From Akkermansia muciniphila (GTDB lineage: Bacteria; Verrucomicrobiota; Verrucomicrobiia; Verrucomicrobiales; Akkermansiaceae), in contig CAMDCV010000033.1 of the NCBI GenBank assembly GCA_945890645.1, positions 1 to 45,255 of the forward strand: a stretch of DNA of 45,255 bases, written 5' to 3'. This document shows, one piece after another, positions 7,864-41,584 of this stretch. Position 1 is the stretch's first letter. Each line of letters begins with the position of its first letter. The notes beneath the pieces are model-generated. The model was given only the letters and a program-made list of their open reading frames with translations, did not search any database and was not told the DNA's origin. The position numbers and the translations under genes were made by a program.

Positions 7864-7936
7864 CGAAAATTGCGTGCAATAAGTCAAACGGAAATTGGTA
7901 AGTGCAAGTGCCTCACTCACCGATTCCCCAACCCTG

Positions 7937-8032
7937 ATCGATGCCGACAAAGCCTACTTGCAAAGCGGCGGGAGTTTTAGGGCAGTGGTTGTTTCCCTGC
8001 TGACTTCCGATTCGTTTATTGATCGGAAATGA
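7937..8032 (+). pseudogene. Leftover C-terminal tail of a DUF1592/DUF1585-type protein (copy B)
   Basis: The same 31-codon tail as at 1053-1148, here ending SDSFIDRK-TGA (8030-8032). It matches copy A at 89 of 96 bases. The differences are six synonymous changes plus one Tyr-to-Asp change near the end. In frame, a few more codons extend upstream (LTDSPTLIDADK) before similarity is lost. It lies in the gap between the divergently read sigma genes at 7090 and 8263, pointing towards the latter. It has no start and no room for a full gene, so it is a relic of a larger gene or a copied tail. Confidence 0.6.
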
Positions 8033-20326: not shown

Positions 20327-23300
20327 ATGAATGCGCTTAATGAAACCATGGCGTCCGCTTCGCGGGCGCTCACTGTCAGAATCCCTCGGGCCATCCCTGC
20401 CCTGTGCATGGCTGCCATGCTGACGATCACGGCGGGCAGGCTGTTCGCAGCACCCCCGGATCTCACAAACGGCGGCGTGCCCACCACGACGAAGACCCTC
20501 AACCTCGGGCCGACAGGTGCCAATGGATGGCTCTATCATGTGAACGAAAATAGTAGCGAGAGTCGGCAGATTCTTGTGAAAAGTGTGGACGCAGGATCAC
20601 CGGCGGTCGGTATTCTCGCAGCAGGTGATGTGATTCTGGGCGTGAATGGCAGCGGTGCGAGTCCTGTTAATTTCACGTCGGATGCCCGCAAGACGCTGGG
20701 CGTGGCGATTGCAGATGCTGAGGCAAGAAATCCGGCCACCCTCCAGCTGCTGCGCTGGAGAGCTGGTGTGACCACCACGGAAACCATCACCCTACAAACC
20801 ATGGGTGCCTACAGTGCCACGGCCCCATACAATTGTCCCAAGTCCGCTTTGATTCTGGAGCAAGGCCTCGACTACGTGATGGCGAATCAGACATCGGGAA
20901 ATATGAGAATGGGCGCGCTAGCACTTTTGGCGGCGAACAATCCCGCCGATCCTGACAACGCCGCACGTTTGGCGCGGGCGCAGTCCGACGCTCTCGCGAT
21001 CATGCCCACGCTGGCGCAAAGGAACGACATGCTGGCAGGCAAGGTTTCGACCGAAAGCAAGATTGCTTGGAGTGTCGGCCACAGGCTGATCGTGCTGGCG
21101 GAGTATTATCTCACCACAGGTGACGCGCAGGTGCTTCCCGGCATTGAGGCTCTCGCCGTGGCGGCGGCCAATGGACAAAGTGCGCTGGGGACGATGGGAC
21201 ATCAGTTCACCAATCCCGGCCCAGACGGTTCGCTAAACGGCGCGTATAACGTCGGCTACGGAACAGTGAACTCCGCAGGCATGCCGTGTTTTTTGGGTCT
21301 GATTCTCGCGAAGAAATGCGGTCTGACAAACCCGGAGATCGACCCAGCGATCGCACGTGCCAGCCGCTTTTTCGCGGCGTATGCGAGTTATGGAACCATT
21401 CCTTACGGCGAGCACGAGCCCTACCGGCAATACCATGAAAGTAACGGCAAGAGCGGTTTGGTCGCCCTCTGCTTCGCACAGCAAGCCAATCGTGTGGAAG
21501 AAGGGAAATTTTTCGCCAAGATGGCAACTGCCGCCGCATCGGAACGCGGCATTGGTCATACTGGTCCGTGGTTCAACTACCTCTGGTCGCCGCTGGGTGC
21601 CGCGATCGGTGGCGAGGAGGCGGCTGCGGAACATTTCAGCCGTATCAGTTGGGATCTGGATTTGAGCCGCCGATGGGATGGTGGTTTTGAGTTCAATAAT
21701 CTCTACGGGCAAGGTGGCGACGGTGGTACACCGGGCTGGCAAAATGATTTTTTTATGTTTACTCCCGCGTTGCTGACCTATGCCTTGCCTCTTCGTCAAT
21801 TGGTGATCACAGGGAAAAATCCGGATGCCAATCGTTGGCTGAATGCGGCAGAAGTCGCCGAGGCCGTATCTGCCGATGAATATGCTGCCGCGAGCCGCAC
21901 GACTCAGCAACTAGTCGCGGATATGGGATCGTTTTCTCCGAAAGTGCAGTATTACGCCGCCAAGGAACTCGGCGACCGCACCGCCGAGCATGGCACGCTG
22001 ATTCCCCAATTGATCGCGATCGCTAACAATGCGAATGCAGGTGAGCAGCGAGTGGGTGCCTGTTTTGCTCTGGGAGAAACGGGCAATGGCAGCGCTGCCG
22101 CCACCCTGGCTACCCTTCTCACGGATGGGGATGGCGAAGTCCGCTATGCCTCCGCCGAAGGTCTCCGTTTCCTGCCACAAGCGAACCGCCTCGCCCACGT
22201 GAACACCATCATGGCCGCCGCCGCCAGCACCAGCAAACCGTTTTTCCCCATCGACGAGGAGGACCCCATCCATTTCGCCCATCACCGCTTGTGCATGTTG
22301 CTTTTTTACAGTGGCAATGCCTACGGGCCGAAAGGCGTAATCTGGGGCAATTCACTCAGCGGCATCAACCGCAGTCTGCTCTACCCTGCCATCGAAGCCG
22401 TGGCCGCCAATCCGAACGGCCAGGCGCGCAGCACGCTGGATCAAACGTACCGCTACCTGACCCAAGCCGACGTCCAGGCGGTCGCCGGCTCGATTGTCGA
22501 TTCCGTCAAAGACCGCGCTCCGGCCGATAAAATGTTCTCTGGCGGCGTCCGCACCAGTGGTCTTAGCATCCTGCAAAGCTACAACATCGCCGAGGGCGTG
22601 CCACTGAGCCGAATCATTGCCGACGACAAATCTCTCGGCAGCGAGCGCAACCACGCCCTGAATGTTTTAACGCTCTATAAGGGCTCCACACGACTGGTCA
22701 ATCCCGACCCAAAAATCGTCGATTTCTGCGAGTTCCTGGTTTTCACCGCACCGACACTCGCCACGGACGCGCAGGAGGCGCTCAATGCCATCATCGCCGA
22801 TTTGAATCCCGTGGCACCGACAGCTTTCAAAACGATCCAATCGATCACTGTCGATAATTCCAGCCTGACCCTGCCGGCCAGACATACTAAGCTGCATGTC
22901 AGCGCCACGGACCATGCCCAAGGCGACACCATCTACACGTGGCGCAAAGTGCATGGTGCCGGAAATGTGACCTTTACACCCAATGGAACGGGTGCCGCCA
23001 ACAACACCACCATTGTCTTCGACGGCATGCCCGGCCAGTATTTGTTTGAAGTCACCATGTCGGATTCTCGCGCACTGACCGAAGCAGTGGAAACCGTCGC
23101 GGTGACGCTCTATCAAGTAGGCGGCGGCCTGCCGCCTAACAGCCCGCCTACGGCAAGTTCCCAGACGCTCACGATTCCGCAGTCCACCACCACGCCCATC
23201 GTCCTCGGCGGCATGGATCCCGAAGGTCATGCGCTGAGTTTTGCAGTGACCAGCGAGCCCGCCCATGGAAAACTATCCGGCTCGGCTCCCTACTTAACCT

Positions 23301-26300
23301 ACACCTCAGACTTCGGCTACACGGGCGCGGATAGTTTCAGTTTCGAGGTGATGGACAGCGAGGGCCAGACAGCATCCGCCACCATCAACCTCACCGTGGA
23401 TCCTATCGCCGGTTTGCAAACCGCGGTCTATGAACCCTTCGACTACGCGGCAGGACTGCTCAACGGAAAATCCGGTGCCTCCGAGGTCGGACTCGCCGGA
23501 ACTTGGGCCTCGAACGCTTCCAGTGGCTTCGTCACTTCCGGTTCGATGACTTATGGAAGTCTCGCCACGAAAGGTGGAAAATTCGAACCCACCGGTGCCA
23601 GCAACCATTGGGGCGGCACACGTGCCATCAGCACCTCGGCGCTCGCCGCTAACGGCCTGCTCAATGATGGTTCCACCTTGTGGTTCAGCGCCGTGGTCGG
23701 TTACGGCCCCACCGCCAACCTCACCAATGCTCGCCTTTCCATAGCCTTAGCGAACAATGGTTTCAGCACTGGCAACTACGACTACTGGGTGCAGAACAGC
23801 GGGCCTCAACTCGGTTCCGGCATCGGCATCACCCTGGGCCGTCATGACGGCATCAACGGACGGGTCAAAGCAACCCAATTCCAAGATTTAGCCAAAGGCG
23901 ATGGTTTCGCCGGCAACATCTACGGTTCGTGGGAAGGCAATGGTGCGGCCTACGTCCAGAACCAAAACGGCCTGATCGTCTGCCGCATTACCTGGGCGGA
24001 TGATCCCGAGCTACCGGACACCATCGAAGTGTTCCAACCGCTCACGAACCTCGAGCTTCCTGGCGCGCCGATCTCGGTGCTCAATGCCGTGCTCGACCAA
24101 TCGACCTTCGACACACTGACGTTCAGCCGCGGCGACATCATCAAACTGGATGAAATCCGCTTCGGTCCCAATTATCACAGCGTGCTGGTAGGCAACCAAC
24201 CGCTTGCGGCCGATGTCGTCGCCCCAACTCCCAATCCCGTGGGTTTCCACACGCCGCCCACGGCACTCAACGGCACGAGCATCACGATGACGGCGGCGAC
24301 CGCTTTTGATTCGAGCGACGTCGAATATTTTTTCACCTGCACCGCGGGTGGTGGCAACAACAGCGGATGGCAAACGGGCACCACTTATACTGATAACGGT
24401 CTCACACCTGGGGTGCAATACAGCTACACAGTGACCGCCCGCGACCTCAGCCCCGCGCAAAACACCACCGCGCCCTCGGCGGCTTCTTCGGTAACCCTGC
24501 CGACTTCTCTCAATGCGCCCGATGTCGTGGGCATGGACCAAGCCACCGCTGAAGCAGTGCTCGTGACTTACAGTTTCGCCGTGGGAACGGTGAGCTCCGC
24601 CTACAGCCTCTCGGTGCCAGCAGGCCAAGTGATCAGCCAGAGCCCGGTGGGCGAAACCACCGCCGCCGTGGGCAGCTCGGTGAGTCTAGTCGTTTCGCTC
24701 GGCCCAGATCCCGATCAGAGCCCGCCGAATCCTAACCCGATGACCTTCGCCATCGCTCCCCATTCGACCGGCACCACGTCGATCGCCATGACCGCCAGCA
24801 CCGCCAGTGATGCGAATGCCGTTGAGTATTACTTCACCTGCACGAGCGGCGGTGGCAACGACAGCGGTTGGCAGGACAGCGCGGCTTATGAAGATAGCGG
24901 CCTCCAAGTCAACACGACCTACACCTACACAGTGACCGCGCGTGACAAGTCGCTCAACAACAACACCGGCACACCGTCAGCGCCAGCCTCCGCCACCACG
25001 GACATTGAGGCGGCACAAATCATCCCGATTACCTCCTTCAATCCGGCTACCTTCTTCAGCGGCGGAATCATGGCGGGCATCGATTTCGATGTGGACTCCA
25101 GCGGTACTTCGGGGTTTCAGGCTGTCACGCAGGCCGGTTTCCTCAGTGTGCCTGCAACGGCCGCCCAATCCTACAACGTCACTCACAACGGGATCACGTT
25201 CGACCTCCAGACCACAAATGCGAATCAGATCAACGTCCCACGCTGGCGCGCCAATGCCCTTGCAGGAAATCTCACCAATGATTTCCAACAGTTTTACGGC
25301 AAAACCGCAACGACCGGCAATGGTGTGACGGCCACGGTTACGTTGTCTGGACTTGCCGCAAACACGGAGTATGAAGTGAGCTTCTTCACCTACAATATCG
25401 GTGCCGGCCAAACGACCCATAATTTCCACCAAGGAACGTCAACGTCGGATCCGCTGATCACGACCTTCACCACCGCTGGCAATCAAAACAACTACAGCAC
25501 CTGGGTTCCCGGCATCACCTTTTCCCTCAATTCCGGAGCCACTGGCACGATCACGATCACGATGCATGCACCTGATTATCCCAACGGCGCGGAATTCGAC
25601 TCACGCCTGACCTTGAACGGCATCAGCGTGGTGGATCCATCACAACCGCTTAACAGCGCCCCGTCGTGGGCGGCCAATCCAATTAACGAAACCGACGCCA
25701 CCGAGGATGCGTCATACTCCGGCACACTCGCCAACGACGCTACCGATGCCGATGCAGCAGACACACTGACCTTTACCAAGGTGAGCGGACCGGCTTGGCT
25801 CAACATCGCCGCGGATGGCACGCTCACGGGCACGCCAACGAATGCGGATGTGGGTACCAACGTCTTCACGGTGAGCGTAACGGATGGCAACTGGCCTGCC
25901 CTCGATGGCACGCTCAACATCACGGTCCTGAACACGAACGACGCGCCGGTTTTCACCGTTGATCCGATCACCAGCGGCGATGCCACCGAAGATGTCTCTT
26001 ACAACGGCACGCTTGATGGCAGCGCGAGCGACGAGGATAGTGGAGCGTCCCTGAGCTTTGCGAAAGTGAGCGGTCCGACCTGGTTGAATGTGGCGGCAAA
26101 TGGCACGCTTTCGGGCACACCGGACAACGCCGATGTCGGCGCAACTCTTTTCACGGTGAGCGTGAGCGACGGTATTGCCGCGCCTGTGATGGCTACGCTC
26201 AACATCTCGGTTCTCAACACCAACGACGCCCCAGTCTGGACAGGCGATCCGATCAACGGAGCGGGTGCCGACGAAGATGTGACTTATAGCGGTAGTCTCG

Positions 26301-27343: not shown

Positions 27344-27367
27344 TGTGACGAATGTGGACGACGAAAT

Positions 27368-27432
27368 GGAGCGCGGAATTTATTCCGCCCAGAAAAGCAT
27401 GAGAACAGCCTGCGGAATAAATTTCGCGCTCC
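27368..27432. repeat. Paired inverted hairpin (REP-doublet-like) between convergent genes
   Basis: Two 21-base arms (27368-27388 and 27412-27432) are inverted copies matching at 20 of 21 bases. Each arm starts with GGAGC at its outer end and is itself a palindrome (GCGGAAT-TT-ATTCCGC). The element lies between the giant gene ending at 27343 and the regulator gene ending at 27467, where it could also stop transcription from both sides. No T-run follows, so its main nature is probably a repeat. Confidence 0.7.
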
Positions 27433-27466
27433 GGTCGAAGAGTCCTCTTGGTTCTGCTCGTTCGTA

Positions 27467-28534
27467 TTATGAGCGCGCCGGGCCTATCGTGCCGCCCATC
27501 ACCAGCTTGGCATCGGTGCTGCTCACTCGGCGGTCGTTCTTTCCGCGGCTGATGTTATCGGACCACTTGACCACGCGTCGGATCAATGGCTGCGCATCCC
27601 AGGCGAAGTGGGTGATGGCCGGAATACACCAGTCAAAAACTTTATCATAGTCGTAGCAGACCAGAGAAACATCACGGGGCGCGACTATGCCACCGCGCGC
27701 CAAATGGTCCCGCGCGGCAATAAACAGCGCAGGCTCATCCAGCAACAGCGCAGTGGGCGGGGTATGCTGAAAAAGCGTATCTAACAGTTTCTGCAAGCCC
27801 GCAGGACTCTCGCGCCAATCCGGCAAATTGTAGGCTCCCGTCTCGATGCCATGTTTCCGCAACTCATCAAGAAAGAGCCGATCGAGAGTTCCTAGAGTTG
27901 GTTTTCGGCGCTCCTCCCGCACTACGCTCACGATACGCCGATGCCCCAATTTCACCAGCCGCTCCACCAGCTCGATCGATGCAGAAGTTTTGCTTGGTGC
28001 CGCGCCAGCGATAGCTACCTGACGAAAGCGCCCGAACATGGCGATGGCGGGCGTGGCTTGCGCAGCAAACCATTCGAGAACGTCACGCGGACCAGAAACG
28101 ACTACCCAGGCATCAGCTTCTGTGGCGGAAACATAACGAGCGATCCGGCTTACGTTCATGCCGAGCTCGTGCATGGTCTTGGCCACGAAGCCCGCATCGT
28201 GTCCCGCTTTCTGCAGTTGATGAACCAAATCAATCAGATAATCCGTTTTCCGATCGGAGTTTTCGTAGAGCAAGATCGCCACCCGCAGCGTTCGACCCCG
28301 AAGCATTGCTCCGGAAAGTTCGATCCTTCTCCTTAGCCCTCTCCCTTGCGAAACCAGCATTCCCTCTTTCGCTAGCCGCTGCATCGCCTCCTCCACTGTC
28401 CAGTGGCTGCAACCCAATTCCCCCGCAAGCCGGTCACGTCCCGGCAGCGTTCCGCGCCAACGCCCCTCGATCATACCCTGCCGAAGCAGGCTAGTGACTT
28501 GATCGGTGAGGGAGGAAAAGCTTTTCTCTGACAC
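27467..28534 (-). CDS. Transcriptional regulator: GntR-type HTH with LacI-type sensor domain
   Basis: A 355-residue protein. Residues 1-72 form a GntR-type winged helix (SLTDQVTSLLRQGMIEGRW, LPGRDRLAGELGCSHWTVEEAMQRLAKEGML). Residues about 80-345 match a periplasmic-binding-protein-like LacI sensor (LRVAILLYENSDRKTDYLI, LVKLGHRRIVSVVREERR, PTALLLDEPALFIAARDHLA, DVSLVCYDYD, ITHFAWD). Such fusions usually sense sugars in PVC bacteria. The start is GTG at 28532-28534, supported because the HTH begins right after it. It is divergent from the FAD oxidoreductase/sulfatase operon; the gap of about 150 bases holds the candidate operator at 28545-28561, fitting autoregulation and control of the operon. 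Ligand unknown. Confidence 0.9.
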   Translation of the reverse strand: MSEKSFSSLTDQVTSLLRQGMIEGRWRGTLPGRDRLAGELGCSHWTVEEAMQRLAKEGMLVSQGRGLRRRIELSGAMLRGRTLRVAILLYENSDRKTDYLIDLVHQLQKAGHDAGFVAKTMHELGMNVSRIARYVSATEADAWVVVSGPRDVLEWFAAQATPAIAMFGRFRQVAIAGAAPSKTSASIELVERLVKLGHRRIVSVVREERRKPTLGTLDRLFLDELRKHGIETGAYNLPDWRESPAGLQKLLDTLFQHTPPTALLLDEPALFIAARDHLARGGIVAPRDVSLVCYDYDKVFDWCIPAITHFAWDAQPLIRRVVKWSDNISRGKNDRRVSSTDAKLVMGGTIGPARS

Positions 28535-28544
28535 AGCAAAAGTT

Positions 28545-28561
28545 GTAAGGAAAACTGACAG
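28545..28561. promoter_or_regulatory. Candidate operator at the regulator/FAD-oxidoreductase divergent promoter
   Basis: GTAAGGAAAACTGACAG differs by one base from the site at 20227-20243. It lies 11 bases upstream of the regulator GTG and about 120 bases upstream of the FAD oxidoreductase ATG (28682). Here one arm of the GTCAG/CTGAC pair is altered (GTAAG). The location suggests that the GntR/LacI-type protein represses itself here. Confidence 0.5.
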
Positions 28562-28681
28562 GATGGAAAGAGTATTTTGTCCAAGCAGATAAGATCAGCT
28601 TGCCGCCGGTCTATGTGAGATTTTGCGCCACAAAAGTTTTTTGTTTTGCGCCGCAGAGGCTTATCGGTATCATCCACCTGC

Positions 28682-30322
28682 ATGATCAACAAACTCCGTC
28701 ACATTCTCGCCGCCTTGTTCATCAGTCAGGCACTCCATGCCCAGGAACCCGAAGTTTACGACATCGTCGTCTATGGCGATTCATCGGGCGCTGTCACCGC
28801 GGCTATTGATGCGAAACGTCGGGGTCTTTCGGTGATTCTCGTCAACCCCGTGGCTTTCCCCGGCGGTATGAGCGCCAGTGGTCTGGGTGCCACCGATTTC
28901 TTGGGCAGACGCAATACATTCGGCGGCATCGCTTCCGAATTCTACGACGGAGTGGCCGCTGCCTACGGCAAAGAGTTCGTTCGTAGCTTCGAGCCGCATG
29001 TGGGTTATAAGGTGTTTCAAAAACTAATCGCCGATGCCGGAGTCACCGTCGCCTATAACGAATTGTTAGATCGCAGCAAGGGCGTGAAAATGAATGGCAA
29101 ACGCATCGAATCGATAACTACACTCAGCGGTAAAACCTATCGCGGCAAGATGTTCATCGATGCCACCTACGTCGGCGATCTGATGGCCGCAGCGGGCGTT
29201 ACCTACACCGTCGGACGCGAGCCCGAGAGCCAGTACGGCGAAGACATGGCAGGCGTTCGTCGTGGCGATACCAGCCCACGCGTTCACTACACGCAAAAAG
29301 ACAAAGACCATTTCATCAAAGACGTAGATCCCTATGTAAAACCGGGTGACCCAAGCAGCGGTTTGCTGCCCTACGTTGTCAAAATCGAAGGCCTCACCAA
29401 CGGTCAAGGCGATAAAAAAATCCAAGCCTACAATTACCGCGTCTGCCTCACCACCGATCCGAAATTGCGCATCCCTATCGAAAAACCCACCGATTATAAA
29501 GAGATCGATTACGAGCTATTATTGCGCAATTTCGATGCCGGCGATCCACGCGTTCCGGCTCTCATCGAACCACTCGAAGGACCAGGCGCTAAGGTCGATT
29601 GGAATAACATGCACGCCGTGGGTTCTGATCATCCTGGTGCCAATTACGAATATCCAGAGGCTTCTTACGAACGCCGTATCGAGATCGAGAAACAGCATCA
29701 AAATTACATCCGTGGTTTCCTTTGGACCATGTCGAACAGCTCACGCGTTCCGGAAGAGATTCGCAAGAAAACCGCCGCCTATGGCTTGCCGAAAGATGAA
29801 TTCACCGACAACGGCGGCTGGCCGTGGATGATCTACATCCGCGAAGCGCGTCGAATGGTCAGTGACTACGTCATGACCCAGCACGACTGCGAAGGCAAAA
29901 AGTCCGCGCCCGATCCCGTGGCGCTTGGCTCTTTCGGCATGGACTCACACTGCGTCCAGCACATCGTGACCGACAAAGGCACGGTGCAGAACGAAGGCGT
30001 CATCTGGCGCGTGCCACCGAAACCGTACGGCATCTCCTATCGTTCCATCATGCCGAAAGAAAGTGAATGCGAAAACCTCTTCGCTCCTATCTGCCTCTCC
30101 ACCTCGCACGTTGCTCACGGCTCGATTCGCATGGAGCCGGTGTTCATGGCTCTCTCCCAAAGCGCCGCCATCGCCGCCAGTCTCGCCATCGAAAAAAACG
30201 TTTCAGTCCAAAAAGTCGACTATGCCGCTCTTAAGGAAAAGCTTGTCGCCGCGAAACAAATCGTCGAGCTTAAGCAAATTCCTCGCGCCGCAAAACCTGC
30301 GCCGCCGAAAAAAGCGCCATGA
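28682..30322 (+). CDS. Exported FAD-dependent oxidoreductase (FAD_oxidored type), copy 1
   Basis: About 546 residues from the ATG at 28682 (MINKLRHILAALFISQALHAQ, a signal peptide); an upstream TTG is rejected. The FAD-binding N-terminus reads YDIVVYGDSSGAVTAAIDAKRRG, a glycine-rich Rossmann motif with Ser replacing one Gly, followed by GGMSASGLGATD and, deeper, FIDATYVGDLMAAAGV. The C-terminal half has MIYIREARRMVSDYVMTQHD, the second-domain motif YRSIMPKESECENLFAPICLS and SIRMEPVFMALSQSAAIAAS. This is the PF12831 family common in Planctomycetes and Verrucomicrobia; substrates are mostly unknown, with carbohydrate oxidation suspected. It overlaps the sulfatase start by ATGA. A paralogue lies at 34009-35682. 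Confidence 0.9.
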   Translation: MINKLRHILAALFISQALHAQEPEVYDIVVYGDSSGAVTAAIDAKRRGLSVILVNPVAFPGGMSASGLGATDFLGRRNTFGGIASEFYDGVAAAYGKEFVRSFEPHVGYKVFQKLIADAGVTVAYNELLDRSKGVKMNGKRIESITTLSGKTYRGKMFIDATYVGDLMAAAGVTYTVGREPESQYGEDMAGVRRGDTSPRVHYTQKDKDHFIKDVDPYVKPGDPSSGLLPYVVKIEGLTNGQGDKKIQAYNYRVCLTTDPKLRIPIEKPTDYKEIDYELLLRNFDAGDPRVPALIEPLEGPGAKVDWNNMHAVGSDHPGANYEYPEASYERRIEIEKQHQNYIRGFLWTMSNSSRVPEEIRKKTAAYGLPKDEFTDNGGWPWMIYIREARRMVSDYVMTQHDCEGKKSAPDPVALGSFGMDSHCVQHIVTDKGTVQNEGVIWRVPPKPYGISYRSIMPKESECENLFAPICLSTSHVAHGSIRMEPVFMALSQSAAIAASLAIEKNVSVQKVDYAALKEKLVAAKQIVELKQIPRAAKPAPPKKAP

Positions 30323-31626
30323 AATCGCTAGCGATGGTGCTGTGCTCGGTTAGCCTCCTCGGGGGCTTCGAAACAACTGCGCCTCGCAAGCCAAACATCG
30401 TTCTCATCATGGCCGATGATCTTGGCTATGGTTCACTTGGTTGTTATGGCAACGCTGAAGTGAAGACGCCGCACATTGATCGCCTTGCCACCGAAGGGGT
30501 GCGTCTCACCGATTTCCACAGCAATGGAGCCTATTGTTCGCCGACGCGCGCTGCATTGTTGACAGGTCGATACCAACAACGCTGCGCTTGGGTGCCCGAT
30601 GAAGAACTAACGCCGGTATTCCGCGCGCAGCGAAAAGCAAACCAAAAGCAGCGCTGGGCCTGGGGCATTTCTCCTGAGGAGCTAACGATTCCCCGGTTGC
30701 TTCAGCAGTCGGGTTATAGAACCGCGCTCATCGGCAAATGGCATCTGGGTTACGACGAAAAATTTCATCCCATGAATTTCGGCTTCGATGAATTCCGCGG
30801 CTTCATGGGCGGGAATGTCGATTATCACACGCACGTGGCCGGTTACGGATTGAAACAGCTCGACTGGTGGAAAGACCGCAAGATCGAGAACGAACAAGGC
30901 TATGCCACCGATTTGCTAACGCGAGCCGCCACGGATTTTATCACCCGCCACAAGGACCAGCCCTTTTTTCTCTATCTCGCGCACGGGGCACCACACGAGC
31001 CATGGCAAAGTCGAGATCCTGCGGCGAAAAAATCACCCGTGGAAACCTACAAGGAGATGATCGAGGTGATGGATGAATCGGTGGGGAAGGTTATCGAGTC
31101 ATTGCGCCACCATCAGCTCGAATCGAACACGCTCGTCATCTTCTGTTCTGATAACGGCCCCGCTGCACCCCGCGACTTCAAAGCGAACGGCTCATTGTCG
31201 GGCGGAAAAGGAAATCTCTACGAAGGTGGCCACCGCGTGCCTTGCATCGCCCGTTGGCCGGGCATGATTCCTGCGGGCAATACACACGAAGACACAGAGA
31301 TGACGATGGATTTTCTGCCGACCTTTGCCAACATGGCGGGTGCTAAAATCCCTGCTGATCGGGTCATCGATGGCCGTGACATGCTTCCTTTTCTCCAAGG
31401 AAAAGGAGTCGCGCCACAACGCACCTTGCACTGGCAATCTGATTCGACATGGGCCATCCGCCATGGCTCTTGGAAATTGATCGGAATTCGTAGTAATGCA
31501 AAGGTTCTTGTAAAACTCGACAATAACCTGCACGAAAGCAGTAACCGCCTCGAAGCCAATCCTGAGAGGGTGGATCAACTGCTCAAACTGCACCTCAAAT
31601 GGCTCGCCGAAGTCGGCGAAAAATAG
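30319..31626 (+). CDS. Sulfatase (formylglycine-dependent)
   Basis: A 435-residue arylsulfatase-family enzyme with an N-terminal hydrophobic stretch (MKSLAMVLCSVSLLGGFETT). Metal-site start: PNIVLIMADDLGYGSLGCYG (D33, D34). The formylglycine motif C-x-P-x-R is C73-S-P-T-R77 with LLTGRYQ, so Cys is to be converted to formylglycine by a maturase not coded here. Further sites: GKWHLGYDEKFHP and IFCSDNGPAAP (metal ligands Asp-Asn). It probably removes sulfate esters from polysaccharides outside the cytoplasm. The ATG lies inside the stop of the FAD oxidoreductase, so the two are co-translated, which suggests action on the same sulfated glycan. The C-terminal domain is rather short (SSNRLEANPERVDQLLKLHL). 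Confidence 0.93.
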   Translation: MKSLAMVLCSVSLLGGFETTAPRKPNIVLIMADDLGYGSLGCYGNAEVKTPHIDRLATEGVRLTDFHSNGAYCSPTRAALLTGRYQQRCAWVPDEELTPVFRAQRKANQKQRWAWGISPEELTIPRLLQQSGYRTALIGKWHLGYDEKFHPMNFGFDEFRGFMGGNVDYHTHVAGYGLKQLDWWKDRKIENEQGYATDLLTRAATDFITRHKDQPFFLYLAHGAPHEPWQSRDPAAKKSPVETYKEMIEVMDESVGKVIESLRHHQLESNTLVIFCSDNGPAAPRDFKANGSLSGGKGNLYEGGHRVPCIARWPGMIPAGNTHEDTEMTMDFLPTFANMAGAKIPADRVIDGRDMLPFLQGKGVAPQRTLHWQSDSTWAIRHGSWKLIGIRSNAKVLVKLDNNLHESSNRLEANPERVDQLLKLHLKWLAEVGEK

Positions 31627-31848
31627 TTCTGACTCATAGGCTGGGAGCCGCAGAAGAACAGAGAAAATCGCCTGAATGACAACTCATCATAATACAAAAA
31701 ATTCTGCAAATTCTGTCAAAATAGCCACCACAGCCGGTCAAGCGATTGCACTATAGCCATGCCATTTCATCCTCTCGCGCAACTTTCGGATAGAAATTTT
31801 CACAGAGAGTCGTATCTTTCTGGGTCGTAACTCATCGACTCCACCACT

Positions 31849-33066
31849 ATGAAATTTACCCGTATTCTCCCCGCCGCCGCCGCTTTGGCATGCGCCCTAT
31901 TTTTCACAGCCGCCTACGCTCGCACTTGGACCAGTTCCGATGGCGCCAAAACTTTTGAAGGCGAACTGAAATCTTACGATCCGGATAAAGGTCTGGTCGC
32001 CGTTACTCTACCCAATGGCAAGTCCTTGAATTTCACGCAGGACAAACTCTCCGCCGACGACATCACCTTTCTCAAAGAGCAGGGCAAGTTTCCTGTAGAT
32101 AAGGCGGCCGCTGGCGCAAGCACAACGGCGGTCAAGGCGATTCCCGATGTGTTGCCGGATTCCGATGGCAAGGAAGCCGATATGAGTAAGCCGGTGCAGG
32201 TCTTCATCATGATGGGGCAATCAAACATGCTGGGCTTCGGGAATCCAGGGCCGGTCAAGGGCGTTGCTGCACAAAAATATCCTTATCTTGTCGATGATGC
32301 AGGGAACTGGAACGTGCGCAAGGATGTCCGCAATGTCTTTTTCTGCATGGCCCAACTGAAATACAATGATTGGTTAACGCCGGAAAACGGCAATGGCAGT
32401 GGGAAATTTGGCCCGGAAATCGGCATCGGAAATTATTTGGGGCACGCCATCGATGCCCCTGTCATGCTACTGAAATCTTGTGTGGGCAATCGTGCTTTGG
32501 GCTGGGACTTGTTGCCTCCCAGTGCGGTAGGTACGGGAAAAGATGGCAAATCCTACGAAGGGGACTCGGAGAGCTCGAATCGGAAAGTCAGTGAAGCAGT
32601 CAAAGCAAAAAGTGGCTGGTATGCAGGCCTCCAGTATGACCAAGACGTAGGTGCTGCTCAAACCGCACTCAAAGAATTGGCCACTTATTATCCAGGTGCT
32701 ACAAAATTCGAAGTTGCCGGATTTTTCTGGTGGCAGGGAAATGCTGAGGCAGGCAAGGGGAGTATCGAGAATTACGACAAGAACCTAGCATTTCTCTTCA
32801 ATGACCTGAAAAAAGACTTCAACGCACCCAATGCCAAGTTTGTTTGCGCGACATTGGGTGAACACGACATGAACGCCCCTCTCACGAAGAAGATGTTTGC
32901 CTTCGCGGAAAACTCGGAATTCAAAGGTAAGGCGGCCGTGTTCTTTACGCAACCTGTCGCCAACGGAGGAAGCAGCGGCAGCCATTACGGTGGCAATGGC
33001 GAGACCTACATGAGCGTAGGCGAAGGCATGGGCAAGGCGATGGTCGAATTGCTCGGCGGCAAATAA
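31849..33066 (+). CDS. Exported SASA-type acetylesterase with SHD1-like N-domain
   Basis: A 405-residue protein with a signal peptide (MKFTRILPAAAALACALFFTAAYA). Residues about 25-80 (RTWTSSDGAKTFEGELKSYD, LSADDITFLKEQ) resemble the SHD1-like domain found at the N-terminus of many PVC secreted proteins. Residues about 114-400 are a SASA/sialate O-acetylesterase-like SGNH hydrolase: VFIMMGQSNMLGFG with nucleophile S125, then LKSCVGNRALGW, FFWWQGNAEAG, and the final His in GSSGSHYGGNGETY. Such carbohydrate esterases remove acetyl groups from glycans, which fits a role beside the upstream sulfatase. A gap of 222 bases from the sulfatase suggests its own promoter. The small STN-like gene follows. 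Confidence 0.87.
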   Translation: MKFTRILPAAAALACALFFTAAYARTWTSSDGAKTFEGELKSYDPDKGLVAVTLPNGKSLNFTQDKLSADDITFLKEQGKFPVDKAAAGASTTAVKAIPDVLPDSDGKEADMSKPVQVFIMMGQSNMLGFGNPGPVKGVAAQKYPYLVDDAGNWNVRKDVRNVFFCMAQLKYNDWLTPENGNGSGKFGPEIGIGNYLGHAIDAPVMLLKSCVGNRALGWDLLPPSAVGTGKDGKSYEGDSESSNRKVSEAVKAKSGWYAGLQYDQDVGAAQTALKELATYYPGATKFEVAGFFWWQGNAEAGKGSIENYDKNLAFLFNDLKKDFNAPNAKFVCATLGEHDMNAPLTKKMFAFAENSEFKGKAAVFFTQPVANGGSSGSHYGGNGETYMSVGEGMGKAMVELLGGK

Positions 33067-33085
33067 TCTTCACCGATCCTCTATT

Positions 33086-33574
33086 TTGAAACCATTTTTT
33101 CTCCTCGCCTTCCTGCTCTCTCCCTTCGCTCACGCCGACGATAAAGCTACCGTAAACCTCGATGCTGGCGGCTACGCCTCTTCAGGCGGTTCTGGCAGGC
33201 CGAAACTGCCGGAAGTGGAGGTGTCCAAGGGCTTCGGCAGCAAGAAGAACGACATCCCAGTGGCGGAACAAATCGCCGCAATCAAGTCACACTTGGGCTA
33301 TCTGACGCTGATGCAGAAGCATAGCATCGATCTGTCGAAAGAAGTCACCGCCACCTATACCGAAAAACCATTGGCAGATATCTTCAAAGAAATACTGCCA
33401 AAAGTGCCTGTGAAATTTGATGGAGCGGATGCGAAGGTAACTGTTAAAAGTTTGACCGCTAACAAAGCGCGCCTTTCCGCAGTGATCGAACATCTCGACG
33501 ATGCGGCAGGAGTCTATTTCGTGTTTTCCGAAGAAGGTATCACAGTAAAAGCAGAACCGCCTATTGTGCCGTAA
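33086..33574 (+). CDS. Small exported STN-like protein (TTG start)
   Basis: A 162-residue protein, start codon TTG at 33086, chosen because it exactly precedes a signal peptide (LKPFFLLAFLLSPFAHA, initiator Met). A Gly/Ser/Pro-rich linker follows. Residues about 90-155 (IDLSKEVTATYTEKPLADIF, VKFDGADAKVTVKSLTANK, LDDAAGVYFVFSEEGITV) resemble the secretin/TonB short N-terminal (STN, beta-alpha-beta) fold, though without the large partner domain. Alone this would be a periplasmic or surface accessory module. It lies 20 bases after the SASA gene, so they probably share a transcript. No specific role can be assigned. Confidence 0.75.
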   Translation: MKPFFLLAFLLSPFAHADDKATVNLDAGGYASSGGSGRPKLPEVEVSKGFGSKKNDIPVAEQIAAIKSHLGYLTLMQKHSIDLSKEVTATYTEKPLADIFKEILPKVPVKFDGADAKVTVKSLTANKARLSAVIEHLDDAAGVYFVFSEEGITVKAEPPIVP

Positions 33575-33654
33575 GAAGTAACTTATAGTCATTCATTCAA
33601 TCCTCGCCGAGGACAATAGTTTGAATATCCTGCTAACAGGATCGTAGCTAAATT

Positions 33655-33972
33655 ATGAGAGTTGCCAGCATTACACTGATCTGTCTCACGTCCGCGTTTC
33701 TGCTCCTTTACCCATTCGTGCTGCTTGCGAATGTGATGAGCTATGCGGGGTATGCAAACTCCGCCACTACGTCATTGGGATTATCGATCGCTATGTCGGG
33801 ATTTCTGTGGAGCTCTACTTTATATCCATTGCCGTATCTGGCCGCACTAATTGTATCAATCATCTATCTCAAAAGAAAAAACGATAAGAAAGCCCTACAG
33901 TGGCAAATTGGTTTATTGGCATACATTGGTATCATCATCGGTTTTATGATAGCATGGATGATTTTTGAGTGA
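33655..33972 (+). CDS. Hypothetical three-span membrane protein
   Basis: A 105-residue hydrophobic protein with three predicted spans: about 5-28 (ITLICLTSAFLLLYPFVLL), 42-70 (SIAMSGFLWSSTLYPLPYLAALIVSIIYL) and 83-104 (LLAYIGIIIGFMIAWMIF). A Lys-rich loop (KRKNDKKALQW) between spans 2 and 3 should be cytoplasmic. No known family is recognised, and no enzyme motif is visible. It is 80 bases after the STN-like gene on the same strand and ends near the convergent oxidoreductase gene. The coding call rests on a continuous frame with typical membrane composition. Confidence 0.6.
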   Translation: MRVASITLICLTSAFLLLYPFVLLANVMSYAGYANSATTSLGLSIAMSGFLWSSTLYPLPYLAALIVSIIYLKRKNDKKALQWQIGLLAYIGIIIGFMIAWMIFE

Positions 33973-34008
33973 GGGCCCACTTTCAAGTGAAAGCATTCTG
34001 TTAGATTT

Positions 34009-35682
34009 TCACGGCGCCAGTTTCTGCCCGCGATCTTCTAACAATTTTTTCAGTGTAGCATAATCCACATCCTGCACTGCTACTTTAGCATCGATGGCGA
34101 GACTGGCCGCGAGCCCAGCGCTTTGGCCGAGGATCATGTAGACGGGTTCCATGCGGATGGAGCCGAAGGCGATGTGACTGGCGGATAAACAGACGGGCAC
34201 TAACAAATTCGTGCACTCGGATTTTTTCGGCACGATGGATCGATACGACACCGGATAGGGCTGGGGACAGGCGTGACCGAACGCGCCTTCGTTGCGCACG
34301 GTCATGTTGCCATCGATCTCGACGGCGACACGCTGACACGGATGCGAGTCCATGTGATAGGACGCGAGACCGATCGAATCCTCGGCGATGCGTGTTGATT
34401 CGCAGTTCGCTTGCGTCATGACATAGTCGGAGAGCATGCGTCGGCCTTCGCGGACGTAGAGTTGATGCGGCCAATGACCAGTGGCTTTGAATTCCTTTGC
34501 ATCGAGGCCAAATTTGTTCACGCGCTCTTGCAGGTCCTTCGGCACTTGTGGGTCGTTAGCAAGGAAGTACATGTAACCTTGTTGGTAGGTCACGTGATCC
34601 TGAAAAATCGTTTCGCGGAGTTGATAGAGTTCTTTGAGTGGCACGACCAGTCCACGACGCGGAGACGGCAGCTTGTCGAAATTGATCGGCTCGAAAGTAC
34701 CATCGGGCCAACGGTGGCTGCCGTTCACATTGTTCGAAGAAAAACTACCAGCGTTGTTGGAGTCACCATTGCGCATTTGCACCGGGCCATCGGTCATCGG
34801 ATTGGTGGTATAGTGAAGTGTCCACTTGATGTCAGGGCTGAAATTCATGAAGCGCGCGAGTAAGTCATAGCGCTTGGGATCGTAGCTCGCAGGTTTCGGG
34901 AACGCGACCTTGTCTTCCTTGTCGCTCAAGAACATGCGGAAATTGTAGGCCTGCACGCGGTAGTCGCCTTCGCCCGGTTTTCCGGCGGGATGCGGAGAAA
35001 TGCCGGGCAATAAACCGGACTTTGGATCTTCGGGGATTTTGTAGGGACTCACGGGCAAGTCGCAAAACTGATAGACGCCTTTCCACGAAACCGTCTGCCA
35101 CTGACCACCGAGCGTTTCGCCGTACGTGGTAGAGGGCTCGCGTCCTACGTGATACGAAACATTTGCCGCGGCGAAGAGATCGCCTTCGTAAGTGGAATCG
35201 ATGAACACCGCAGCGTTGATGGTCTCGCCGGTTTCCATAGTGATCGCGGAAATTTTTCCGTCCTTCATGGCGACAGATTCGAGCGGTCGTTCGCACAGCA
35301 CGGTGACCTTGGCCTCGTCTAACATGCTTCGGAATCGCGCTTCGGCTTCTGAGGGATTGAAATCCACGAGCTTGCCGAGGCTTTGATAAAATTCGAGTGC
35401 CATACCGCCGATGGATTTTTTCTTGCCGAGATCTGTTGCCGTGAGGCCGCCTGAGGTCATGCCACCGACAAAAGGATCGAACGAGAGAAGCACGACTTTT
35501 TTGCCCAGTCGTCCCGCTTGCACCGCCGCGGCGACTCCTCCGGGTGTGCCCCCGTAGACTGCGACATCGCACGTGATGGTCTGAGCCGCAGAGCGTTCGA
35601 CAGGTCGATAGTAAATCAAACCGCGCGGTTTTGCGGCGTATAGTGCCGAACTGAAGAGCAACAGAGAGAGGAAGATTTTCAT
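34009..35682 (-). CDS. Exported FAD-dependent oxidoreductase, copy 2
   Basis: 557 residues from the ATG at 35682 (MKIFLSLLLFSSALYA, a signal peptide); the frame stays open further upstream through an inverted repeat, but those codons are not plausible. The FAD motif is CDVAVYGGTPGGVAAAVQAG, with all three Gly positions, then GGMTSGGLTATDLG. The middle and end match copy 1 closely: LYVREGRRMLSDYVMTQAN, SYRSIVPKKSECTNLLVPVC and SIRMEPVYMILGQSAGLAAS. Copy 2 carries an insert in the centre (GSFSSNNVNGSHRWP). It is divergent from the second DUF6288 gene (326-base gap), mirroring the nearness of copy 1 to the giant DUF6288 gene. An oxidative step on a glycan is possible; no substrate is known. Confidence 0.9.
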   Translation of the reverse strand: MKIFLSLLLFSSALYAAKPRGLIYYRPVERSAAQTITCDVAVYGGTPGGVAAAVQAGRLGKKVVLLSFDPFVGGMTSGGLTATDLGKKKSIGGMALEFYQSLGKLVDFNPSEAEARFRSMLDEAKVTVLCERPLESVAMKDGKISAITMETGETINAAVFIDSTYEGDLFAAANVSYHVGREPSTTYGETLGGQWQTVSWKGVYQFCDLPVSPYKIPEDPKSGLLPGISPHPAGKPGEGDYRVQAYNFRMFLSDKEDKVAFPKPASYDPKRYDLLARFMNFSPDIKWTLHYTTNPMTDGPVQMRNGDSNNAGSFSSNNVNGSHRWPDGTFEPINFDKLPSPRRGLVVPLKELYQLRETIFQDHVTYQQGYMYFLANDPQVPKDLQERVNKFGLDAKEFKATGHWPHQLYVREGRRMLSDYVMTQANCESTRIAEDSIGLASYHMDSHPCQRVAVEIDGNMTVRNEGAFGHACPQPYPVSYRSIVPKKSECTNLLVPVCLSASHIAFGSIRMEPVYMILGQSAGLAASLAIDAKVAVQDVDYATLKKLLEDRGQKLAP

Positions 35683-35702
35683 GAGGAAAATTCTAGGGGA
35701 AA

Positions 35703-35760
35703 GAGCACAGGCGTCTCGCCTGTGACATAAAGGCAAACACAGGCGAGACGCCTGGGCTCC
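35703..35760. repeat. Inverted hairpin pair upstream of FAD oxidoreductase copy 2
   Basis: Two 17-base arms (35708-35724 and 35738-35754) are exact inverted copies, and each contains a palindrome CAGGCG-TCT-CGCCTG. At the outer foot stands GAGC (left) and, on the minus strand, GGAGC (right). It sits just upstream of the oxidoreductase ATG at 35682, so it lies in the mRNA leader or promoter and could affect expression. Confidence 0.65.
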
Positions 35761-36008
35761 TTTCCGTTTTGCAGGAAAAACTTGTGCAAATACGCCCCAG
35801 GTCCTTCTAATCTTGCAATCGACGGACTGCGTTTCACTCAGAGCGACGCTACTTTGCCCCACGCGATTCCAACATAGTGATCGACAAAAGAGGTCATCAA
35901 TGATTAAACTTTCGTAAGTTCTACCGCACACCAGACCAAATTCATCGAATTCGGAAATCGCGTAGATTCTTCCTCACCACCATTCTTCCTCCCACCAAAC
36001 GCAACCCT
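35761..36008. promoter_or_regulatory. Divergent promoter region between FAD oxidoreductase copy 2 and DUF6288 copy 2
   Basis: The rest of the 326-base divergent gap. It should hold both promoters, but no pair of -35/-10 boxes is convincing. The 17-base operator candidate of the first cluster was not found here by eye, so this pair may be controlled differently. Confidence 0.3.
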
Positions 36009-38762
36009 ATGAGCATCGGACAATTTCACTTCTCTCGCGTCCTCGGCACCTGCGCTGCTGCGATCGCATTGGCATTCACTCCCTCCGTGAGTGCGCAAAA
36101 TAAGAATGGCCCCGCAAGCCCGGGGGCCGCTTACTACACAGCTGCCACCACGCCCTTGTTCAACCCTTTCCCGAATGTCACCGACAAAAAACCGTGGCTG
36201 GTACGAAACCTCGGCACCGTCGGCATCGGCATCAATCTCGTGCAGCCAGGGATGGTCATGCAGATCAACAACGTGGAGAAAGGCTCCCCCGCAGAAGCAA
36301 CAGGCAAACTCCAAAAGGGCCAGATCATCGAGAGTATCAACGGCAAGGTGCTCAAGGAAGTCGATCCACGCGTCATCTTGGGCGACATCGTCACCGAGGC
36401 TGAAGCCAAGGATGGGAAAGTCGTTTTGAAAATCAAGGATGTCGGCGATGTGCTCGTGACAATTCCCGTGATGGGCGCCTACAGCAAAACCTGGCCCGTG
36501 AATTGTCCGAAGTCCGATAAGATTGTTCGCAATCTCGCCGACCTCATCGGGAAAGAGGCGCAGCCCAAATGGGGTTCGGTCATTTTCCTCCTTTCCACGG
36601 GCGAAGAAAAGGACCTCGAGGTGGTGAAGCGCTGGATGAAAGGTGTCAAGAACTACGCTGGGATGAATTGGGATAGAGGCTACAAGGGGCCGGGCCTCTG
36701 CGAGTATTACCTGCGCACTGGCGATCAAAGCGTGCTGCCGGAAATCAAGCAGATGACCGAGGAGCTCAAAAAACATATGTACAGTGGCGGTTGGAGCGGT
36801 CGTGGTGCGCCAGCGGCCTTCACCTATTCCGTTGGCACCGGACAAGTCCATGCCTCTGGCGTGAACTGCATGAGTTTCCTGCTGATGGCCAAGCTCTGCG
36901 GCGTGGAGGTAGACCAATACATGTTCGATGAAGCCTTCTCGCAGTTCTATCGCTTCGCGGGGCACGGCAACGTCGCTTATGGCAACACACTGCCTGAGGG
37001 CGGTTTTCGCGACAATGGCAAAACCAGCAGCCTCGCCTACGGTTTAGGAGCAGCGGCGATGATCGCGCCAGAGGGCGAAAAATCGGTGTTCGCCAAAGCC
37101 CGTGACAATTCCGCTATGAAAGCCTTCTACGCCACGAACTGGTTCCACGCCGCCCACACCGGCGGGGGTATGGGCGAAATCTGGCACCATTCCGCCATCA
37201 GCCAGATGCGGGAGAAGCGGCCCACAGCCTACCGTTCCTATCTCGACACCCGCCGTTGGGTGATGGATCTTTCCCGCCGTTTCGATGGCAGCATCGGCAT
37301 CGCCGGGATGGATGACCGCTACGACCGCTCCACCACCGAGGATAACATGGATTGGGGCACCTTTTTTGCGCTGACTTACACGTATCACCGCAAGCAACTG
37401 CAACTTTTCGGCGCACCTCGCAGCAAATGGGCCAAGAGCATGCCATTGCCGCGCCCCTGGGGGAACGAAGCGGACGATGTCTTCCACTCCATCGAGCCAA
37501 TCCCCGGCGGCCCACTCACTCTGGAGGATCTCAATCGAGAACGAGTCGAAACGGATGCCTCCGCGGCTGTCATCGCAAAGCTCACCGATCCGAACCTGAC
37601 CGATGAAACGCTTCTCAAATACATCCAGCACCCCGAATACGACCTGCGCAGCATGGCCATGGATCAGGTAGTCAGACGCGGCAAGGTGAATATGGTCACT
37701 CTGCTTTTGAAGTCCGAAGATGCACGCCTGCGACAGGCGGGGCTTTTGGCTCTCACCGGCATGTTCAAGGGCAGCGCTATTCCGCCCGACAAAGTGACGC
37801 CGGAAATGTATAGTCTTGTTGGCAGGATGATCGACAACCCCTCCGAATCTTGGTGGGTTGCGCTTCATGCCATCGATGCACTGGCCCGCGCGACACCAGA
37901 CGTGATTAGCAAACACCGCGACCGCTTGCTTGAATTTCTCAAATACGACTGCACTTGGCTGCAAACTGCCGCCGTGTGCACCCTTGCGAAAATCTCCACC
38001 GATCCCGCACATTACAAATTGGTTCTCCCAGCGATCATTGATCAATCCGCCTCCTTCCGAGTGGACTCCGCTTCTTCTCGGAGCTCTATCGCCATAGCCA
38101 ATGCGATGAAAACGGCCAGTCCCGAGGTGACAGCTTTCGCCACTCCACTGCTGAAAAAGACCTACGCAGCCCTCCCCGATGAGCTCAGGGAACCAAACAC
38201 CAACGCCCTCATGAGCAGTGGTGCTAGGGTGATCCGTACACGCGTCGGAGACATTCTGCGAGGAGTGCCGGGCGGAGAAGAATACGTGCGTCACCTGCCG
38301 AGAACGACCCTAGCCTCCCACATCAGCGGCAAGGATTCCGACATGTATGCCTACAACGGTACATTCACTGCGAACCCTGCCGTCATCGGCACCTGGGCCT
38401 GGGCGGTGTATCCCCAGCCGAACAACCCATCGGAAATCGATGCCCGCATCGCCGCGTTCATGAAGGCCAATGGTGGCAAAGGTCCTGCAAAAATCGACAA
38501 CCCCAAGGACACCATCCAACTGCTCGATGGTGGAAAAATCGCAAAATCAAAATTCTTCGGCGGTTATTTTTGGTCGGGCAACATGCTCGTCGGCGTCAAT
38601 GACGATCAAGCCCTCAAAATGGAGGTTCGGAACGTCGGCGGTCGTGATTTCCTGATCATCGAACGCGGTGGATTCAACGCCGTTCCTGACACCGAAGAGG
38701 CCGCCACTGCTGCAGTTCCCAAAGACTGGCATTGCGGCTATCACGTCTACGTGAGGCAGTAA
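36009..38762 (+). CDS. Exported DUF6288-type protein with PDZ and HEAT-like repeats
   Basis: A 917-residue protein with a signal peptide (FSRVLGTCAAAIALAFTPSVSA-Q). A PDZ-like domain lies at about 70-155 (MQINNVEKGSPAEATGKLQK, GQIIESINGKVL). The DUF6288 body follows the conserved VMGAYSKTWPVNCPKS: GLCEYYLRTGDQSVLPEI, ASGVNCMSFLLMAKLCGV, NGKTSSLAYGLGAAAMIAP, TRRWVMDLSRRFDGSIGI. This is probably an alpha/alpha-barrel. HEAT-like repeats occupy about 535-735 (HPEYDLRSMAMDQVVRRGK). The C-terminus (FFGGYFWSGNMLVGVND) is a beta domain not seen in the giant paralogue, which instead carries Ig-like modules. The start ATG fits the signal peptide. Family function is unknown; conserved Cys, His and Asp in the body could form an active site. 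Confidence 0.88.
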   Translation: MSIGQFHFSRVLGTCAAAIALAFTPSVSAQNKNGPASPGAAYYTAATTPLFNPFPNVTDKKPWLVRNLGTVGIGINLVQPGMVMQINNVEKGSPAEATGKLQKGQIIESINGKVLKEVDPRVILGDIVTEAEAKDGKVVLKIKDVGDVLVTIPVMGAYSKTWPVNCPKSDKIVRNLADLIGKEAQPKWGSVIFLLSTGEEKDLEVVKRWMKGVKNYAGMNWDRGYKGPGLCEYYLRTGDQSVLPEIKQMTEELKKHMYSGGWSGRGAPAAFTYSVGTGQVHASGVNCMSFLLMAKLCGVEVDQYMFDEAFSQFYRFAGHGNVAYGNTLPEGGFRDNGKTSSLAYGLGAAAMIAPEGEKSVFAKARDNSAMKAFYATNWFHAAHTGGGMGEIWHHSAISQMREKRPTAYRSYLDTRRWVMDLSRRFDGSIGIAGMDDRYDRSTTEDNMDWGTFFALTYTYHRKQLQLFGAPRSKWAKSMPLPRPWGNEADDVFHSIEPIPGGPLTLEDLNRERVETDASAAVIAKLTDPNLTDETLLKYIQHPEYDLRSMAMDQVVRRGKVNMVTLLLKSEDARLRQAGLLALTGMFKGSAIPPDKVTPEMYSLVGRMIDNPSESWWVALHAIDALARATPDVISKHRDRLLEFLKYDCTWLQTAAVCTLAKISTDPAHYKLVLPAIIDQSASFRVDSASSRSSIAIANAMKTASPEVTAFATPLLKKTYAALPDELREPNTNALMSSGARVIRTRVGDILRGVPGGEEYVRHLPRTTLASHISGKDSDMYAYNGTFTANPAVIGTWAWAVYPQPNNPSEIDARIAAFMKANGGKGPAKIDNPKDTIQLLDGGKIAKSKFFGGYFWSGNMLVGVNDDQALKMEVRNVGGRDFLIIERGGFNAVPDTEEAATAAVPKDWHCGYHVYVRQ

Positions 38763-41534: not shown

Positions 41535-41584
41535 GCAAGCCCGAATATCCACACTGCCCGCCCAACGCGCCAGCCTTTTTCTAA

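Follow-up and report, generated by a model that had tools for sequence, protein, structure and literature searches.

Two DUF6288 genes beside FAD-dependent oxidoreductase genes in Akkermansia muciniphila: an unsupported functional unit, and SASA-type esterases as the better-supported partner of DUF6288

Gene Organization of the Region

The window, by which the whole stretch of Akkermansia muciniphila DNA analysed here (45,255 nt) is meant, contains two genes coding for DUF6288 proteins (DUFa and DUFb) and two coding for FAD-dependent oxidoreductases (FADa and FADb). These genes and their neighbors are arranged as follows:

13224..14636, plus strand: HXXSHH (DUF1552) protein, member of the FADa block described below
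14691..20048, minus strand: PATR-repeat autotransporter-like protein, member of the FADa block
20327..27343, plus strand: DUFa, a 2338-aa DUF6288 protein with DUF6288 (toroid) and HEAT parts, then Big_9, He_PIG, Cadherin and PASTA repeats
27467..28534, minus strand: GntR-type regulator with a Peripla_BP_3 sensor domain, between DUFa and FADa
28682..30322, plus strand: FADa, a PF12831 FAD-dependent oxidoreductase
30319..31626, plus strand: sulfatase (PF00884), whose relatives (64-65%) adjoin FADa in L138 and L168
31849..33066, plus strand: SASA-type carbohydrate esterase (PF03629), whose relatives adjoin FADa in L121 (86%) and L122 (81%) and lie one gene away in L138 (48%)
34009..35682, minus strand: FADb, a PF12831 FAD-dependent oxidoreductase
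36009..38762, plus strand: DUFb, a 917-aa DUF6288 protein with a PDZ-like region, an alpha/alpha toroid (about residues 159-462) and a HEAT/armadillo part (about 526-754)
38841..41552, minus strand: membrane protein with a C-terminal spermidine-synthase-like domain (NF037959), a recurrent neighbor of DUFb

DUFa, DUFb, FADa, and FADb are all open reading frames that match the named families; export of the four proteins was judged by eye only, from their N-termini. Against the Pfam profile of DUF6288 (PF19805, cut-off 26.3), DUFa and DUFb score 454 and 407 bits, and the domain occupies residues 80-497 of DUFa. FADa and FADb reach 337 and 327 bits against PF12831 (FAD_oxidored, cut-off 27) and cover profile positions 1-416 of 416. 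FADb (minus strand, start at 35682) and DUFb (plus strand, start at 36009) are divergent, with 326 bases between them. Profile scores and coordinates agree with the layout given in the original prediction, namely two DUF6288 genes and two paralogous FAD genes, their order and divergence, and the intervening regulator, sulfatase, and esterase.

FADa and FADb are 38% identical over 533 columns, and the DUF6288 domains of DUFa and DUFb just 27% over 386 columns. Identities of this size mean that the two pairs do not stem from a recent segmental duplication; this explanation, which had been named beforehand as one that could undo the prediction, was therefore rejected. Elsewhere in the window, a gene for a protein kinase with a WD40 propeller (4010-7045) adjoins an ECF-like sigma factor gene (7090-7950), and a protein with GDSL-like lipase, DUF7133, HEAT, and cytochrome c domains is encoded at 41787-44915.

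Occurrence of DUF6288-FAD Pairs in Related Genomes

It had been predicted from the repeated pairing that DUF6288 and PF12831 proteins form a functional unit. This was not borne out, as the pairing is not enriched elsewhere and the FADa block exists without DUF6288 in relatives. The genome to which the window belongs (3.8 Mb in 66 contigs) carries about 15 DUF6288 genes (17 matches) and six clear PF12831 genes out of 16 matches, most of the others being short; the only ones near DUF6288 are the two in the window. In counts for this genome, matches found in two pieces were merged (41 SASA matches, for example, became 32 genes), and all expected neighbor counts assume a uniform placement of genes. 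An FAD gene is located within 4 kb of two of the 15 DUF6288 genes, with 0.3 expected (Poisson p 0.04), and both cases belong to this one cluster.

The gene-neighborhood survey that the original prediction had called for was run on related genomes and found no enrichment of DUF6288 near PF12831. Among the PF12831 matches listed for the 17 DUF6288-bearing genomes (29 were searched), 4 of 67 FAD genes have a DUF6288 domain no more than 9 kb away, with 2.6 expected (p 0.26); leaving out the window's own genome, the same count is 2 of 61, with 2.2 expected. The order was also searched for the closest FAD matches (386 genomes), and each match was taken together with as much as 10 kb of sequence on either side; there are 21 for FADa besides the window and 22 for FADb. 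Most of them are 64-91% identical and four are 50-57% identical. DUF6288 occurs in the flanks of none of the 21 FADa-like and one of the 22 FADb-like matches, where 4 kb of sequence is present on both sides in 11 and 18 cases, respectively.

Seen from the DUF6288 side, the number of loci with an FAD gene no more than 4 kb away is 1 of 80 for the DUFb type (37 of these 80 have 4 kb on both sides), 0 of 20 for DUFa-type loci hand-picked from the match listing, 0 of 7 for further DUFa-type loci, and 0 of 11 for other loci of the window's own genome; these samples overlap with the genome set, several loci apparently lying on contigs of the searched genomes. The sole positive DUFb-type locus (L097) has a weak FAD match 3.0 kb away. 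Overall, the positive cases are the two pairs of the window, a DUF6288-sulfatase-FAD arrangement in G017 (L133), in which all genes point in one direction and the last codes for a relative of FADb (65%), and a locus in G025 (L135), in which another FAD gene is located 87 bases ahead of the DUF6288 gene. A literature search returned no paper combining PF12831 with a sulfatase and, among the titles listed, none on a DUF6288-FAD pairing. A functional unit of DUF6288 and FAD oxidoreductases is unsupported.

Synteny of the FADa Block

Relatives of FADa reveal a genomic context of its own. In G004 (contig C3; L121 and L221), counterparts of the HXXSHH protein (92%), the PATR protein (69%), FADa (90%), and the SASA esterase (86%) are encoded in this order, with no DUF6288 or GntR match in the block; among the genes listed, PATR and FADa follow each other directly. 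PATR and FADa are direct neighbors in G001 (contig C8; L123), HXXSHH, FADa, and SASA genes are adjacent in G009 (contig C27; L122), and in G002 (L138) FADa is followed by a sulfatase (64%) and then by a SASA gene (48%). This synteny shows that FADa is part of a block made up of the HXXSHH protein, the PATR autotransporter, FADa, the sulfatase, and the SASA esterase, some members of which are missing in individual relatives. The window differs from these relatives in that DUFa and the GntR gene sit between PATR and FADa. The simplest reading is that both were inserted in this lineage, the direction of the change being inferred; loss in the other lineages is the alternative.

About 7.5 kb past PATR in G001, an ORF (L222:13862-16999) is 51% identical to a quarter of DUFa, probably to its repeat tail only. 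Sequence searches of the PDB identified no solved relative along the whole length of the FAD proteins; weak matches begin in the N-terminal FAD-binding part, and FADa alone gave no match.

Association of DUF6288 with SASA-Type Esterases

Grouping of the genes located within 4 kb of DUF6288 (422 genes from 90 loci, including the window and its own genome) yielded two groups of SASA-type esterases, present in 23 and 21 loci, as well as sulfatases (20 loci), the spermidine-synthase-like membrane protein (12), and GntR regulators (7). A 275-aa family without a Pfam match adjoins DUF6288 in 10 loci (L075:9582-10406 and nine more).

In the window's own genome, 8 of the 15 DUF6288 genes have a SASA domain either in the same protein or in a gene no more than 4 kb away (1.44 expected, p 1.3e-4); counting separate SASA genes only, the number is seven (p 7e-4). 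One of the eight cases involves the SASA gene of the window, a member of the FADa block by synteny, and a single SASA gene accounts for two of the eight. As a control, 20 arbitrary stretches of the same genome were searched. They contained no SASA gene by phmmer, for which two of the three queries came from DUF6288 neighbors, and by PF03629 a SASA gene was found in the center of two of them (C1:99505 and C4:104489), so that the contrast, by the Pfam measure, is 8/15 versus 2/20. A SASA gene within 4 kb was likewise found in 34 of the 80 DUFb-type loci (30 if proteins with an additional DUF6288 match are left aside) and in 11 of the 20 hand-picked DUFa-type loci, and in only one of the seven further long DUFa-type loci. 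These data make the SASA-type esterase a better-supported partner of DUF6288 than the FAD oxidoreductase. A misleading lead, the oxidase partner, is thereby removed and replaced by a testable one, in which DUF6288 is associated with carbohydrate esterases.

In two instances from the window's own genome, DUF6288 and SASA are fused in a single chain (L033, 3072 aa; L028, 1177 aa, with PDZ, DUF6288, HEAT, and SASA parts). Fusion as a general rule was rejected, as a Pfam scan of 13 DUF6288 proteins (DUFa, DUFb, L028, L030:9368, L032, L033, L034, L174, and L176-L180) showed SASA in these two alone. A special partnership with sulfatases is not supported, as they occur near 4 of the 15 own-genome DUF6288 genes with 2.5 expected (p 0.24). 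Raw counts of GntR genes within 4 kb of DUF6288 are 5/80, 4/20, 1/7, and 1/11 for the samples named above.

Two further loci of this genome are of note for their composition. On contig C21 (L030:5422-19096), a stretch of about 14 kb contains three DUF6288 genes interspersed with SASA-like genes, one of these SASA-like genes having no Pfam match, and at L032:3388-5193 a protein with a metallopeptidase-like end (Peptidase_M90/ATLF Pfam match) is encoded near DUF6288.

A Membrane Protein Adjoining the DUFb Clade

The protein encoded at 38841-41552 matches NF037959 (fused MFS/spermidine synthase) with 170.2 bits at a cut-off of 40, and many hydrophobic stretches are found within its first 480 residues. 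Of the 80 DUFb-type loci, 11 have a gene for such a spermidine-synthase-like protein no more than 5 kb away; conversely, 14 of 40 loci centered on such a protein have DUF6288 within 4 kb. Strong matches to the 38841-41552 protein (E 1e-213 or lower) are present in six of the 29 genomes, all of which have 10-25 DUF6288 matches, and the other 11 DUF6288-bearing genomes have 1-9 each. Four of nine spermidine-synthase-like genes are located within 9 kb of DUF6288, with 0.59 expected (p 0.003, own genome included); without the own genome the count is 2/7, with p 0.08 at 9 kb and p 0.04 at 6 kb. The DUFb clade often adjoins this membrane protein, the statistic being weak once the own genome is set aside. 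No paper on NF037959 was retrieved by family name.

Architecture and Expansion of the DUF6288 Family

As matched or modelled, DUF6288 is a large dispersed family consisting of a PDZ-like region, an alpha/alpha toroid, a HEAT arm and, in some members, Ig-like tails. Up to 25 matches are found per genome. In G008, four to five matches lie in about 22 kb of a single contig (C213:17025-39208), which suggests local expansion. In three long DUF6288 proteins (L177, L179, and L180), PATR autotransporter-type repeats and Ig domains are present as well; therefore, some members of the family may be displayed on the cell surface. A literature search returned no paper naming DUF6288 or PF19805.

Predicted Fold and Conserved Residues

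Structure prediction, as proposed for DUFb with the original prediction, yielded alpha/alpha toroids resembling carbohydrate enzymes for both DUFb and DUFa. The DUFb model has a mean pLDDT of 88.4, and its toroid aligns with the GH76 structure 6shm over 274 residues (Z 19.5, rmsd 3.9; VIA-align 2); the best matches are GH76 mannanases, cellobiose 2-epimerases, and GH105 enzymes, with Z of about 16-19.5. The toroid of DUFa (residues 155-506, pLDDT 81.9) aligns with the GH76 structure 4v1s over 286 residues (Z 21.6, rmsd 3.6), and its matches comprise GH76 enzymes, glucuronyl hydrolases, and epimerases (Z up to 21.6). Nearly level with these glycan enzymes are squalene-hopene cyclase (Z 20.2) and drimenyl diphosphate synthase (Z 19.2); DXDD is the motif of squalene-hopene cyclases. 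Among the VIA-align matches listed, carbohydrate enzymes account for 30 of 50 rows for DUFb and for about 40 of 50 for DUFa.

With Foldseek, the DUFa toroid matched nothing at E <= 0.001, complement C5/C4 being among the best, and the top matches of full-length DUFb were armadillo-type repeats. Sequence searches of the PDB gave weak PDZ matches for DUFb. The toroid profile matched epsin, a cellulase, a six-hairpin glycosidase, and an epimerase there, all weakly. CGEQ is the thioester motif of complement-type domains. The toroids do not match it, their invariant Cys166 being followed by P-K-S in the consensus.

The toroid alignment comprises 73 sequences (71 of 91 segments and the two of the window), and an alignment of long DUFb-type proteins includes 66 of 76. 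Invariant in all 73 toroids are, in DUFb numbering, Cys166, Lys168, Trp221, Glu232, Thr237, Tyr324, His383, Trp392, and Arg423, and Asn336 is kept in 72. Read by eye from the helix list of the model, W221, Y324, H383, W392, and R423 are located in or near the loops before putative inner helices. In alpha/alpha toroids, the active site is usually found where the inner helices begin or just ahead of them. Several invariant residues of DUF6288 would thus gather at a putative rim of the modelled toroid. The adjacent catalytic aspartates of GH76 are a mutated pair named in PDB titles; across the 73 DUF6288 toroids, no invariant adjacent acidic pair was found. At the positions of E199 and E200 of DUFb, 67 and 63 of the 73 sequences, respectively, have an acidic residue and DUFa has none, as judged from the sequence alignment only.

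Discussion

The DUF6288-FAD pairs of the window are probably circumstantial neighbors in a carbohydrate-processing region, DUF6288 having the SASA esterase as its recurrent partner, joined by the membrane protein in the DUFb clade. The most likely reading of the toroid itself is that of a glycan-active or glycan-binding domain. The original prediction had guessed that the toroid cleaves or binds a glycan which the oxidase then modifies; the glycan part agrees with the fold and with the carbohydrate-esterase context, and the part played by the oxidase fell with the pairing. In the most likely mechanism, the toroid would bind an acetylated polysaccharide at the rim where several of the invariant residues come together and perhaps cleave or rearrange it, while the SASA-type esterase would strip off O-acetyl groups and the HEAT and Ig parts would serve as arms or anchors.

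Other explanations have to be weighed against this one. The pairs could still be a genuine functional unit in the minority of genomes that show them, the gene order having been lost elsewhere; the toroid would then prepare a glycan for oxidation by the FAD enzyme. The two pairs of the window, the loci L133 (DUF6288-sulfatase-FADb) and L135 (FAD-DUF6288, 87 bases) and the p value of 0.04 in the own genome would fit such a unit, but DUF6288 is near only 1 of the 43 closest FAD matches and the 17 genomes show no enrichment, which makes it improbable. Even less credence is given to the idea that, within this fold, the toroid groups with the terpene cyclases and has a lipid as its substrate, in keeping with the membrane partner of DUFb. 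The Z values for squalene-hopene cyclase and drimenyl diphosphate synthase and the recurrence of the membrane neighbor can be cited in its favor; however, carbohydrate enzymes make up the larger part of the listed structural matches for both proteins (30/50 and about 40/50), and the neighbors frequently are carbohydrate esterases.

A stronger contender, though still on the unlikely side, is that DUF6288 proteins are non-enzymatic surface binders or scaffolds. On this view, the PDZ, toroid, and HEAT/Ig parts would grip a polysaccharide or a partner protein, and catalysis would be left to SASA esterases and sulfatases. The PDZ, HEAT, Ig, Cadherin, and PASTA modules and the lack of an invariant adjacent acidic pair among the 73 toroids are in line with this role, yet divergent members share several polar and aromatic residues without exception, in our judgement seemingly beyond the need of a pure scaffold. 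Returning to a polysaccharide-directed toroid, it is tentatively proposed, with somewhat less than even confidence, that DUF6288 constitutes an undescribed class of exported polysaccharide-active toroid enzymes that goes together with SASA-type esterases, has a His/Tyr/Asn/Lys/Arg rim in place of the acidic pair, is built on PDZ and HEAT parts, and is greatly expanded in some Verrucomicrobiota genomes. If active, DUF6288 would represent a new enzyme class in polysaccharide breakdown by these bacteria.

Comparison with Known Systems

In freshwater Verrucomicrobia, sulfatase genes adjoin PSCyt genes in presumed polysaccharide loci (PMC5615132). These Planctomycete-type cytochrome/sulfatase clusters resemble the present case in that HXXSHH and PSCyt3 genes are found near a few DUF6288 genes, and differ in that the literature search did not find DUF6288 named there. 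FADa and FADb far exceed the cut-off of the PF12831 FAD_oxidored family. The protein encoded at 38841-41552 is likened to NF037959 by a score above the cut-off and is set apart by its linkage to DUF6288. The SASA esterases of PF03629 are found adjacent to DUF6288 and, in two proteins of the window's own genome, fused with it, but constitute a separate domain, for which DUFa and DUFb show no match. With terpene cyclases, the DUF6288 models have the alpha/alpha toroid fold in common, a comparison made at the fold level only. The same predicted toroid of about 270-300 residues (Z of about 17-22) appears to be shared with GH76 alpha-1,6-mannanases, GH88/GH105 unsaturated glucuronyl hydrolases, and cellobiose 2-epimerases, whereas DUF6288, at about 10% identity to GH76 and its kin, shows no invariant adjacent acidic pair in the toroid alignment and carries additional PDZ-like and HEAT parts.
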